Positions 4,232 through 15,502 of a stretch of DNA of 41,812 nt are shown here, one piece after another. The position numbers were made by a program, and so were the translations under genes. The notes below the pieces were generated by a model. It had not been told where the DNA came from and searched no databases. It saw nothing but the letters and a program-made list of their open reading frames with translations. Every line of letters starts with the position of its first letter. Position 1 is the first letter of the stretch. The stretch comes from Lysobacterales bacterium (GTDB lineage Bacteria > Pseudomonadota > Gammaproteobacteria > Xanthomonadales > Marinicellaceae): contig JALSLV010000094.1 in the NCBI GenBank assembly GCA_026988115.1, positions 1 to 41,812 of the forward strand, given 5' to 3'.

Positions 4232-4539
4232 AATTTTCATTTTGGTTTTAAAAGAAGTCTTTTATTGAAACAGTGCTGGCTTTAGGAGATTGCCGCGTCG
4301 CTTCGGCTCCTCGCAATGACGGTGTATTATTTGGGGTTTAGTGCAACCTCGAAAAAGAAAATGTCATTGCGAGGAGGAACGACGCGGCAATCTTATGGCG
4401 AGTCATATTTTCATTTAAAGCGCTATTTGTAGGTTGTGGCCTCGCCCACCAGGCTGTTTTTGGGTTTTTCGATAGTCGTCAAGATTTGAAAATTTTATCC
4501 TCGCTCTTCTCGCAGGTAATGTGAGGCAATTGTAATTTA
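4232..4539. other. Intergenic repeat-bearing segment between apbE and a membrane-protein gene
   Basis: No gene is visible here. The segment contains the inverted REP-like pair listed separately and, after it, low-information sequence up to the stop of the next gene. No clear terminator for apbE was found. Confidence 0.6.
4285..4394. repeat. Inverted pair of REP-like repeats (BIME-like)
   Basis: Left arm GATTGCCGCGTCGCTTCGGC followed by TCCTCGCAATGAC, right arm TGTCATTGCGAGGAGGAAC followed by GACGCGGCAATC. The arms are inverted and separated by about 40 bp. A further copy of the left arm lies at 31029-31066 and a decayed one near 5620-5652. This type of repeat is common between genes in many bacteria and can form a stable hairpin. 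Confidence 0.8.
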
Positions 4540-11336: not shown

Positions 11337-13538
11337 CTAACTCCGAATGTTTAAATTAATATGAGTGTGCGCACTTTGCTTGTTCCGACAAGACTGACTT
11401 TCGCGCGCTTCTCTTCTTTCTCGTTTCTTCCGTTTTTTAACCATAACAGGACAAACTTCTTCATCAACGTACCTGACTTGACAGTGCAAACAATTCACAC
11501 ACTCATTCATGTTGATATTACCTTCAGGATGAATGGCTTGCACCATGCATTCTTTAGCACAGACTTGACAAGGGCTTCCGCAATCGTTGGGATAACGTTT
11601 AATCCAATCAAATAATTTAAGTTTAGCCGGAATGGCAAGACCCGCTCCAAGCGGGCATAAATAGCGACAAAAGAATCGTTCAATGAACAACCCAATCACT
11701 AAAAGGGATAAACCGTAGACCACGAACGGCCAGGTTCTTTGAAATTTTAAAATAATACTGGTTTTAAAAGGCTCAACCTCGGCCAAATGTTCAGCGGTCT
11801 CAATGGAGTACAAAGACACACCAAGAAGACCTAAGAAAATCATATACTTCAGTGCCCAAAGGCGTTCATGCAACCCCCAAGGCAAGGTAATTTGAGGTGT
11901 TTTTAATTTACGGGCAATGTGATTGGTTAATTCTTGCAAAGCACCAAATGGACACAACCAACCACAATAAGCACCGCGTGCCCACAAGATTAATGAGGCA
12001 GCTACCGAACACCATAAAATAAAGACCAAAGGATCTCTTAAGAAGAAACTCCAGTCAAAGTTATTAATTAATGCACCAAAAAAGGTTAAAATATTGACTA
12101 CAGATAATTGTGCATTATTAATGAAACCTAACCAAATCAAGACAAAGGTGAGGAAGGAATAGCGCACAATCTTTGTCCATTTAGCACTCTTGGTGAGTTG
12201 GTTTTGAAAGAAGAAGATTAAAGTTAAAATTGTCAACAAAACACCCAACACTATTATTTGTGTATGTTTTCCTTTCCAAATGCTTTTAACCAACTTCATA
12301 TTGGCTGCATTTCTTTCGCTTTTTGCTTCACCACCTTCTGGCACATATTGAAGTTGCTTAACAACAGGTTTTGGCGCAACAATATCAACAAACTTATCTG
12401 GTACTTGGTAAGGTAAATGTGCATTGAAAAAACGCTTTTCACGCGGACCGACCGCTTGTGAAATTAACAAATTAAAGATAAATTCATCACCAGCCTCAAA
12501 TTTACTTTTGCCATTGGTGGGTTTCGGCAAATAGAACACACCAATTTCAACAAACTCAGGAGAACCCTCTGCATAGAGCTGACGCAAACGTTTGTAATGT
12601 TGATCGCGGAAACGGATAGTATTGTCACCCTGTTCTACTTGGAAGCGATCAAAAACCCCACCACGAACAAAGCCCGAACCTCTAAATGAAAATAAACCAT
12701 TAGCAGCAATAACAAGGGCTTGTTGCCCATCAACAATTCTTTCTTTTAAATTTCTATACTCACCTTTGCCTAATAAGTTTTCACCAATTTCAGGAACAGA
12801 AACCATGCCCATGTACAGATCAATAAAAGTGTCATTGGGGTTTTGTGTTTTGACTCGTTGCGCCGCTGTGGTAAAACCCTTTTCCAAAAACTTTTGACTG
12901 ACTTGCCCCGTGGTTAAATGCAGGTTTTTAACAGAACCTTCTTCAATAAGTTGTTGCCATGTTTTTGGTTCATTTGGCATGTTTTTCTTTAACTTTCGTG
13001 TTTCCTTGCCGGCATGCTCTTCATCACTAATAACAGATAAGGCACGAAATGCCTTAATTACACTGGAAACAATGCTGTCATTCATCACAATAACGGTAAC
13101 AGTTGCTCCTGAAACGATATCAATTTCATTGTCTTCCAAGGTCTTTTCTTTAAAACCTTTAATAACATTGTAACCAATGAGCTTTTCAAATGGCTTCATA
13201 AGTTTTGGTTCAGGAATACCAATCAAAACAATGGGTTCAGAGTGTTTAAGCAGTTGAATCCCACGAATCACACCATCTTTATCCACACCTATTGCCATAT
13301 GGATGGGTTTGCCAGAATATCCGATACTTTCGGTATAATTGGTATTGATGATTAAATAACCAATTTGTTCATCGCCTTTATATGCGTCAAAAAGGCTAGG
13401 AACTTTTTTGTTGGCAACAATTTTATCTGCTTGTGGGTAAGCTTTTTTTAAATTAAGCTTATGTTCTAACTGAAAAGCAGAAACAGAAAAACTCATCAAT
13501 AGGTAAAAACTCAATAAAAAGGATCGCATAAATGGCAT
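11337..13538 (-). CDS. nosR: NosR, flavo-iron-sulfur membrane electron donor/regulator of N2O reduction
   Basis: Membrane protein needed for nosZ expression and for electron supply to NosZ. A signal peptide or first membrane segment (MRSFLLSFYLLMSFSVSA) leads into a periplasmic FMN-binding domain with SGATVTV near 143-149, where ApbE would link FMN to Thr146. Several membrane helices follow, with CGWLCPFGALQE and CRYLCPLGAGLA polyferredoxin-type loops. The cytoplasmic C terminus has two 4Fe-4S motifs (CGSPCQVCAKEC and CVNCLHCQVRYVDEEVC) and ends in a basic tail. Three starts are possible: TTG 13547, ATG 13538 and ATG 13529. The 13538 ATG has AGAG upstream. Length 733 is normal. Confidence 0.96.
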   Translation of the reverse strand: MPFMRSFLLSFYLLMSFSVSAFQLEHKLNLKKAYPQADKIVANKKVPSLFDAYKGDEQIGYLIINTNYTESIGYSGKPIHMAIGVDKDGVIRGIQLLKHSEPIVLIGIPEPKLMKPFEKLIGYNVIKGFKEKTLEDNEIDIVSGATVTVIVMNDSIVSSVIKAFRALSVISDEEHAGKETRKLKKNMPNEPKTWQQLIEEGSVKNLHLTTGQVSQKFLEKGFTTAAQRVKTQNPNDTFIDLYMGMVSVPEIGENLLGKGEYRNLKERIVDGQQALVIAANGLFSFRGSGFVRGGVFDRFQVEQGDNTIRFRDQHYKRLRQLYAEGSPEFVEIGVFYLPKPTNGKSKFEAGDEFIFNLLISQAVGPREKRFFNAHLPYQVPDKFVDIVAPKPVVKQLQYVPEGGEAKSERNAANMKLVKSIWKGKHTQIIVLGVLLTILTLIFFFQNQLTKSAKWTKIVRYSFLTFVLIWLGFINNAQLSVVNILTFFGALINNFDWSFFLRDPLVFILWCSVAASLILWARGAYCGWLCPFGALQELTNHIARKLKTPQITLPWGLHERLWALKYMIFLGLLGVSLYSIETAEHLAEVEPFKTSIILKFQRTWPFVVYGLSLLVIGLFIERFFCRYLCPLGAGLAIPAKLKLFDWIKRYPNDCGSPCQVCAKECMVQAIHPEGNINMNECVNCLHCQVRYVDEEVCPVMVKKRKKRERREARESQSCRNKQSAHTHINLNIRS

Positions 13539-13557: not shown

Positions 13558-13605
13558 TCAAATCATTATAAAGATTTAAATTTTTTGCCAATTGACCTAC
13601 ATCAA
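13558..13605 (-). promoter_or_regulatory. nosR promoter with FNR/DNR-type box
   Basis: On the minus strand, TTGATGTAGGTCAA (13605-13592) matches the FNR/DNR/NNR consensus TTGAT-N4-(A/G)TCAA. A perfect -10 hexamer TATAAT follows at 13570-13565. Counting from it, the start point is near 13558 and the box is centred about 40.5 bp upstream, the class II activator position. The leader would be about 20 nt. This supports induction of the nos operon under oxygen limitation or by nitrogen oxides. No regulator gene of this family lies in the window. Confidence 0.82.
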
Positions 13606-13612
13606 TACCATA

Positions 13613-13775
13613 CCCAAATCCCGATATAGAATCGCAATAAAGAGTGCAAGCAGTTGATGTGCATAAGGAATTGACAAAAACTGAATCCACCTGATTGGTG
13701 ATTAAGCTTTTTGACGATTTCTTAGGTGCATTAAGGGCTTGTGCTCTCATTGTGATTTCTATATCGGGATTTGGG
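13613..13775. mobile_element. Foldback MITE, family B, between nosR and tsaD
   Basis: A 163-bp near-complete palindrome. The outer 19 bp, CCCAAATCCCGATATAGAA, are a perfect inverted repeat, and the arms continue pairing with few mismatches and short gaps to a central ACC-TGATT-GGT turn. It is flanked by the 5-bp direct repeat CCATA (13608-13612 and 13776-13780), a target duplication. It has no coding capacity and no resemblance to family A. It lies 7 bp beyond the FNR-type box of nosR, so whatever DNA used to be upstream has been displaced toward tsaD. The rest of the gene-free stretch up to tsaD shows no other clear signal. Confidence 0.88.
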
Positions 13776-13859
13776 CCATAGGTTAAATCACTTTAAAAAA
13801 CATAATGCATTTATTTATGATTGATTTACAATAAGCCTACTTTAAACAAAACACCCTCC

Positions 13860-14897
13860 ATGAAGATTTTAGGAATAGAAAGCTCTTGTGATGAAACAGG
13901 CATTGCCATTTACGATACCGATAAGGGACTTATCGCCGACCAACTGTATTCGCAAATAGAATTGCACGCACAATACGGTGGCGTGTTTCCAGAAATTGCT
14001 TCACGTGATCACATTAAAAAAACCGTTCCATTAATACGGCAAGCTTGTGATGAAGCGGGAATTACCTTGCAAGACCTTGATGGCATTGCTTATACGGCAG
14101 GGCCTGGCTTGATTGGGGCTTTATTGGTGGGTTCGAGCGTTGGTTGTTCTTTGGCTTGGGCGTTGGATTTGCCCTCAATTGAAGTGCACCACATGGAAGG
14201 TCATTTATTGGCTCCATTATTGGATGAAAACAATAAACCAGAATTTCCTTTTGTGTGTTTACTGGTCTCTGGCGGTCACAGCCTGTTGGTTGATGTCAAA
14301 GCACTCGGCGATTACACGATTTTGGGTGATACACTCGATGATGCTGCAGGAGAAGCCTTTGATAAAACGGCTAAGTTGTTGGGTTTGGGTTATCCTGGAG
14401 GAAAAATACTGTCCGATTTAGCCACACAAGGCGACAAAACCCGTTTCAAATTTCCGCGTCCAATGATAAATAGACCCGGTTTAGATTTTAGTTTCTCTGG
14501 GTTGAAAACAGCGGTGCGAGTGGCATATATGCAAGAGATTGAAAAAGAGAGCTATATTGAATTTCGTGATAAATACAGGCTAGTCAAAGACATTGCAGCG
14601 AGTTTTCAAGAAGCCATTGTTGATACCTTGGTAAAAAAATGCCAACGAGCCATGAAACAAACCAGCTATAAAACACTTGTTATTGCAGGAGGAGTTAGTG
14701 CTAATACTGAGTTGCGTCACCAATTAAAAATGTTGGATAAAAAAATACGCATCACCACGTATTTTCCAGAACTAAAATACTGCACCGACAACGGTGCGAT
14801 GATTGCCTTTGCAGGAGCCATGCGCTTACTAAAAGAAAAAAAGCACAACAATAAAATTAAAGCATACCCAAGGTGGAGTTTGGAAGGCTTGGATTAA
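13860..14897 (+). CDS. tsaD: TsaD, tRNA N6-threonylcarbamoyladenosine transferase
   Basis: Transfers the threonylcarbamoyl group to A37 of tRNAs that read ANN codons, with TsaB and TsaE. ASKHA-fold motifs: [14 protein letters not shown] at the N terminus, [13 protein letters not shown], the metal-binding [44 protein letters not shown] and [12 protein letters not shown]. At 345 residues it is of standard length. The start is set by the invariant N terminus; thirteen further in-frame residues upstream do not belong to the family. It stands alone here, next to nosR only because of divergent orientation. Confidence 0.97.
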
Positions 14898-15189: not shown

Positions 15190-15216
15190 TTCTAATAACC
15201 TGTTTATTTTATTTAA

Positions 15217-15375
15217 GAGACCTTTGCATAACTCTGGGATGATGGAAAAAAGAATGAAAAAAGCACCAATCAAGGCAAAAAATGAGTCAAATAGCCCGCT
15301 ATTTGCGAATTTTTTAACGCAGAGTGGTGTTTTTTGCAACTTTTTAACACGTTCCACGAGTTATGCAAAGGTCTC
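15217..15375. mobile_element. MITE family A, copy 2 (inverted relative to copy 1)
   Basis: A 159-bp element with the same 18-bp ends as copy 1 and about 95% or more identity to it when reverse-complemented. It is flanked by TTTAA at 15212-15216 and 15376-15380, a 5-bp target duplication. The internal hairpin has decayed on one arm (GACTCA in place of GCGAA). It separates the DUF4404 gene from rapA. The remaining noncoding sequence up to rapA shows no distinct signal. Confidence 0.92.
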
Positions 15376-15502
15376 TTTAAATATTATACTCTTATATCAA
15401 CCCTGTGGAACAATATTATTACTCAAATTAACTAAAAACTGGAAAGCAGCCACAATTTAAGTAAGATGACAGGGTTATTAAAAACATCATACGAAATACT
15501 GC

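Follow-up and report, generated by a model that had tools for sequence, protein, structure and literature searches.

Bacterial MITEs are commonly regarded as the remnant ends of transposons, and for several of them an RNA structure has been described. QMITE2/CbsR16 of Coxiella, present in about 50 copies, is a MITE with terminal inverted repeats, about 190 bp long and flanked by 7–9-bp duplications; the accessible part of PMC5896051 predicts its transcript as a long hairpin of −113 kcal/mol and reports that one copy makes an sRNA. The ERIC and YPAL/RU-2 repeats of enterobacteria, of 127 and 168 bp respectively, form a long stem-loop; open frames have been noted, and an RNAz P of 1.00 is given for YPAL (PMC2759123, PMC2267715, accessible parts). 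The BOX, RUP and SPRITE repeats of the pneumococcus are MITE-like with extensive RNA structure, and mobilisation in trans by IS transposases is proposed for them in the text available from PMC3049150. Correia elements are MITEs of Neisseria whose transcripts are cut by RNase III (PMC10969869, a review, accessible sections).

The window (i.e., the whole stretch of 41,812 nucleotides that was analysed) carries a 163-bp near-palindrome at 13613–13775 of the + strand, between nosR (11337–13529, − strand, start at 13529) and tsaD (13860–14897, + strand, start at 13860). It is a foldback MITE, short and without a transposase gene, with terminal inverted repeats matching perfectly over 19 bp (left repeat CCCAAATCCCGATATAGAA at 13613–13631, +; right repeat at 13757–13775, −) and with CCATA read on both sides as a target duplication (13608–13612 and 13776–13780). 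The MITE would have inserted into the AT-rich nosR-tsaD spacer with a 5-bp target duplication. The nosR gene was called from a match to NF046105 (E 2.5e-232, 773 bits, under the model cut-off of 1000). An intact FNR/DNR-type box, TTGACCTACATCAA (TTGATGTAGGTCAA on the nosR strand), lies at 13592–13605 (−), 7 bp from the MITE, and is centred at about −40.5 from the inferred nosR start, close to the class II position. An earlier note on this DNA had described a foldback element in this place, with its start 7 bp away from an FNR-type box at the class II position, and inverted-repeat search, flanks and folding confirmed that description. The structure prediction which it proposed as a check gave pairing over the whole length: as single-stranded DNA the window copy folded at −48.8 kcal/mol, whereas shuffled versions averaged −15.8 (z −12.5), and none of 200 did as well. 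The folding (sense) strand is the + strand of the window, which is the tsaD direction. Nothing in Rfam 15 matched the window copy above threshold, and a known Rfam RNA family was therefore rejected for it; the one sub-threshold match was to a miRNA hairpin (27.8 bits, cut-off 211). The 19-bp end occurred twice in the window at ≤3 mismatches, with 0 occurrences expected. A second foldback MITE family, with GAGACCTTTGCA ends, is found in the window at 1167–1326 and 15212–15380 and elsewhere in locus L186 (3832–3992), and comparison of both element sets supported the earlier view that the two families are distinct.

The window element is a real MITE with many relatives. A search of its own genome (3.51 Mb, 121 contigs) returned 87 matches, many of which were the two strands of one copy; this genome holds dozens of copies, nine of them (window copy included) at least 91% identical. 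Searching it for the ends, as the note had also proposed, located the first 18 bp 68 times at ≤2 mismatches, compared with once for the reversed control. From the collected loci 57 distinct near-full-length copies were taken (two weak ones, L116 and L166, were dropped), and 41 of these were flanked by an exact 5-bp duplication, compared with 4.8% of mismatched flank pairs; in an enlarged set the duplication was exact in 59 of 98 copies (one of the 98 overlaps another). Ten of the 11 genus genomes, counting the window's own, carried copies. Many copies and target-site duplications are thus both seen, and the empty sites, which the note had expected along with related elements, are represented by alleles in the congeners G007 and G008 that are near-empty and not exact. 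No relatives were matched by blastn in plasmids (window copy and four others as queries) or in phages (one of these copies). Within the genus the end variants GATATAGA and GATAGTGA were differently combined on copies of different subfamilies, as if exchanged between copies. Two hairpins of 46 and 45 bp (L143, 6908–6953; L071, 1531–1575) were little more than two MITE ends; their 5-bp duplication is exact in L071 and nearly so in L143, and they come from a Nitrospirae MAG and the window's genome. A strong match in L099 (JAMOMJ, labelled Cyclobacteriaceae) lies in a MAG that shares its sample with G007 but bears the label of another phylum, and may represent a misbinned contig. Contig numbers and coordinates identify G007 as the MAG JAMOMK.

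The IS1380 family includes ISEcp1. Transposases of this family most likely move the MITE, since matching ends flank some IS1380-family transposons. The congener G007 has a 1575-bp IS1380 element with the same ends as the MITE, a TAGAA duplication and a broken transposase, whose 303-aa frame matched NF033539 at E 2e-45, under the cut-off, and passed the cut-off at 192.3 bits when read through the stop. The window's own genome has one decayed IS1380 copy with one matching end, and no intact copy with matching ends was found there. IS1380 transposases were sought in 34 genomes with MITE relatives; 20 gave a match, 9 of them over the cut-off. For 20 of the 30 loci fetched, each scanned at ≤5 mismatches for the MITE ends of its own genome, ends were found on both sides of the transposase in two (G602, G157) and on one side in three (two in G798, one in G818); they were absent on these terms from the remaining 15, several of which are cut by contig ends. 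One IS1380 element in G798 has ends resembling those of that genome's MITE, the second being found on looser terms. Duplications at the full-length copies were ACATA in G157 and TAATA in G798, with none in G602. The same ends thus occur on full-length IS1380 elements (G007, G157, G602), and the MITE has the 5-bp AT-rich target duplication. It would be non-autonomous, moved by IS1380-family transposases acting on its ends. An intact IS1380 element of the window's own genome, in G000:C30, was rejected as parent, as it had no matching ends within the span searched; descent of the MITE from a full-length IS1380 element by internal deletion was also rejected, only the ends being in common (by eye).

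Relatives beyond the genus were sought with covariance models. The first model was built from set A1, comprising 49 ungapped copies of exactly 163 bp (the other 8 of the 57 copies have other lengths), and among 299 genomes from the order it detected the element in 14; ten of these belong to the genus, and the remaining four, whose copies have mostly different ends, to two other families. Matches to a second model, A2, from 21 diverse copies, came from 28 of 369 class genomes (24 of 272 genera) and 28 of 398 phylum genomes (13 of 213 genera). Each count includes the window's genome, and since the hits scored per genome were capped, copy numbers are lower bounds; family relatives were 159–164 bp long. 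Because E-values of the models were calibrated on random sequence and not on other hairpins, 19 class and 11 phylum matches, one per genome, were read individually. All 30 started with CC and ended with GG; 21 of the 29 with both flanks had exact 5-bp duplications, 26 of 30 had ATTG in the 5′ arm, and 22 of 30 contained ATCAAGAGCTTGTGC at ≤3 mismatches. The tip hairpin of the window copy, CACC-UNAUU-GGUG (13688–13700, +), is conserved in the genus: the tip sequence TCACCTNATTGGTGA (≤2 mismatches) was present in 49 of 49 A1 copies and 11 of 11 phylum matches, and in only 7 of 19 class matches and 1 of 16 copies from the other families of the order, so that at least two tip types exist in the wider family. 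Two 207-bp versions (L302 and L307, from G157 and G211) have an extra insert of GGA-loop hairpins at the hairpin tip. A literature search of titles and abstract openings, with most subscription journals outside its reach, returned no description of this MITE family, which is widespread and apparently undescribed. The covariance model can serve for annotating many unexplained intergenic repeats.

Other repeats accompany these elements. A unit of about 72 nt with three small hairpins, often with GGA loops, was seen in L315–L344, L018, L145, L065, L069 and L239; it has matches in 9 of 11 genus genomes and is nested in copies of both MITE families (by eye), and Rfam returned nothing in the six loci searched. 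GGA-loop hairpins are linked to CsrA binding; the idea that the unit is a CsrA sponge was set aside, the middle loop being without GGA in several copies. At 4287–4393 of the window are GC-rich nested inverted repeats, AGATTGCCGCGTCGCTTCGGCTC and CTCCTCGCAATGAC, which look like another interspersed repeat.

The mismatches between the arms of the MITE fall unevenly on the two strands. In a plain mirror register, which knows nothing of folding, the 49 A1 copies had 424 G.T against 100 A.C oppositions. Outside the genus, where orientation was set by models favouring G.U, the G.T:A.C counts in this register were 180:67, 171:65 and 127:17, the last two for the class and phylum matches that were read. 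When 34 disjoint pairs of copies at 70–85% identity were compared, changes between Watson-Crick and G.T pairs numbered 199 versus 89 for A.C; between 85 and 93% identity the G.T excess was not significant in the mirror register (56 versus 46, p 0.37) and was significant when scored on the structure (68 versus 39), and above 93% identity the changes were 36 versus 13. Among 33 interior pairs of set A3 (26 diverse copies aligned by sequence only) there were 144 G.T against 11 A.C in 849 cells, with G.T ahead in 24 of 26 copies; consensus folds favour G.U, and the mirror-register numbers are for this reason the fairer ones. Of the two strands' RNAs, the sense one (window + strand) was the better-folding in all 57 genus copies, with a mean difference of 25.7 kcal/mol, and likewise in all 16 copies from the order's other families. 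Twelve control elements with the same ends but other interiors, hand-chosen from 36 rows of which the other 24 were longer or shorter variants of the MITE family or its relatives, gave strand differences of 0–16.7 kcal/mol (median <5). Five copies of the unrelated GAGACCTTTGCA MITE also differed between strands, by 9.8–23.4 kcal/mol, but with 26 G.T against 30 A.C, so that an energy difference alone is not specific. The L359 element, almost perfectly palindromic, differs little between strands (−134.6 and −132.7).

These one-strand deviations suggest that selection acts on a single strand, as a folded RNA or as single-stranded DNA, and the simplest reading is probably RNA. The orientation of 141 copies to neighbouring genes showed no bias (upstream gene sense in 66, antisense in 63), which argues against an ordinary cis role as 3′-UTR or terminator; the fold therefore probably serves the element itself and not the genes beside it. 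Selection of the fold as single-stranded DNA, during replication or transposition, would fit this lack of orientation bias as well as the involvement of the whole element, ends included, in the hairpin, and DNA hairpins also tolerate G.T; nonetheless we regard it as unlikely, in that exact 5-bp duplications suggest ordinary double-stranded cut-and-paste, the bias of strands relative to local GC skew was not significant (40 of 97 positive, p 0.10; Wilcoxon p 0.054, borderline), and G.U pairs as numerous as those in the A3 interior are better tolerated by RNA.

We examined the nosR-tsaD spacer in relatives. Of the 11 genus genomes, six (G000, G002, G006, G007, G008 and G010) gave strong, in some cases partial, nosR matches and 3 more only weak ones; the nosR-tsaD arrangement was found in G000, G007 and G008, and in the closest relative, G006, the contig ends inside nosR. 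The spacer of G008 is near-empty, and that of G007 has no IS1380-ended element and contains at another place a 161-bp element of the GAGACCTTTGCA family, so that two MITE families entered the same spacer independently. The FNR-type box and its 21-bp spacing to the inferred nosR −10 element, TATAAT (13565–13570, −), are identical in all four readable promoters (G000, G002, G007, G008), and the inferred tsaD −10 element, TACAAT (13827–13832, +), lies outside the MITE and is present in all three genomes with the arrangement. The earlier suggestion that the insertion removed upstream control found no support, as no deletion is visible and what lies beyond the box can still be recognised past the MITE; with box, spacing and both −10 elements unchanged, the insertion appears to have displaced the sequence upstream of the box by 168 bp and not to have removed control. 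Both inferred core promoters lie outside the MITE and neither inferred main transcript contains it, and for this reason the window copy is most likely a near-neutral spacer at nosR, suggested to be tolerated because the FNR-type promoter was left whole. It may instead act in cis, the displaced upstream sequence having changed or insulated the FNR-dependent promoter; the 7-bp distance, the 168 bp added between box and tsaD promoter, the lack of such an element in G007 and G008 and the independent entry of the second family in G007 speak for this, but the unchanged promoter elements, and the failure to see by eye any motif upstream of the box common to G002, G007 and G008, make an effect on nosR distinctly improbable. 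Insulation of nosR from tsaD, the note's other idea, is possible.

The fold itself has been kept while the sequence changed. A1 copies diverge down to 65% identity, and on the fold of the window copy (71 pairs) 91.1% of their cells were paired; 29 pairs had changed on both sides versus 18.7 in shuffles, and the covariation score was 0.230 versus 0.136 in shuffles and at most 0.061 in slid controls, with further pair types only slightly raised (84 versus 79.2, 28 of 500 shuffles as high). In the more diverse A3 set, 92.7% of cells were paired compared with 70.1% in shuffles, 49 of 57 pairs had changed on both sides compared with 34.2, and covariation reached 0.653 compared with 0.236 (slid controls at most 0.16). 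Compensated double changes numbered 87, with about 10 expected, in the 34 disjoint copy pairs at 70–85% identity; these tests compare existing copies, which are not fully independent. A tandem U.G/G.U wobble, at 13645–13646 (5′ half, GUGCAAG arm) and 13742–13743 (3′ half, CUUGUGC arm) of the + strand, was kept in 47 of 49 A1 and 20 of 21 A2 copies, and its two positions in 20 and 17 of 26 A3 copies, where the exceptions were mostly other standard pairs. Pairs kept by compensatory change, and kept better on one strand, are what is expected of a structured RNA, and the best explanation would be that, in the lineages that propagate, selection has kept the fold through changes of sequence, ends and even tip. 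Palindromes are known to undergo arm-to-arm template switching, which would restore complementarity, so that mutation or conversion between the arms could produce compensatory changes where selection is lacking; such a process would favour neither G.T over A.C on one strand nor the persistence of the tandem wobble in A1 and A2, and we consider it a poor candidate, improbable as the source of the pattern. That the element is protein-coding, inserting in frame as 163 + 5 = 168 bp like the Rickettsia palindromic elements, is hardly credible and was rejected for both strands: of 49 copies, 34 have an open + offset 1 frame and 44 an open − offset 1 frame, and changes touching stops are rarer in these frames than under random placement (0.034 versus 0.058 and 0.011 versus 0.038, 14 representatives), but neither open frame has a synonymous excess (0.257 versus 0.262; 0.226 versus 0.258), the only such excess being in + frame 0 (0.321 versus 0.243), which has 2–7 stops per copy, and none of 57 copies lies inside an ORF (with less strict criteria, 8 of 141 fall within open frames of ≥100 aa).

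The reading that we prefer, and consider probable, is that of a MITE moved by IS1380-family transposases, near-neutral at nosR, whose family fold is selected on one strand, probably as RNA. Transcription of the sense strand (or its exposure as single-stranded DNA) would let the entire MITE fold into one long hairpin carrying the conserved tandem G.U motif in its arms. A conserved host factor would then recognise the folded RNA, e.g., through trimming by RNase III as reported for the Correia elements, and such recognition would lower the cost of insertion or stabilise an element RNA; more generally, the fold may be bound by a nuclease or RNA-binding protein of the host, or may aid transposition. 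The selected function is probably the element's own. A further and bolder proposal, for which we hold only slender expectations, is that these are phylum-wide cut-and-paste MITEs that depend for their spread on their own folded RNA, which would help IS1380-type transposases, or a host factor, to propagate the element in trans; if true, ends and tip would be exchangeable while an RNA core, with its covariation and arm tandem wobble, persists. Here a single MITE family, carried by several types of end, retains one strand-specific fold in many families of the phylum, and this opens to direct test the question whether selection can act on a DNA transposon for an RNA that it makes.

Compared with known systems, the MITE shares with the IS1380 family the ends of full-length elements that encode an NF033539 transposase, and the 5-bp target duplications; it differs in lacking a transposase gene and in its interior, which shares nothing with the full-length copies but the ends (by eye), and no MITE of this kind was named for the IS1380 family in the titles and abstract openings searched. 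QMITE2/CbsR16 is likewise a many-copy MITE with terminal inverted repeats and a long-hairpin transcript and differs in length and duplication size; the words “compensatory” and “RNA structure” are absent from its paper (PMC5896051). ERIC and YPAL/RU-2 have other ends and TA duplications, where the window family has 5 bp, which sets it apart from YPAL/RU-2 (PMC2759123, accessible part), and they are reported there from enterobacteria and Vibrio. BOX, RUP and SPRITE are tied to other IS families, BOX being modular, and the word covariation is absent from the available text of PMC3049150; Correia elements belong to Neisseria, and IS1380 is unmentioned in the accessible sections of the review (PMC10969869). 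Among the kinds compared, QMITE2/CbsR16, ERIC/YPAL, BOX/RUP/SPRITE and the Correia elements stand closest to the window family.
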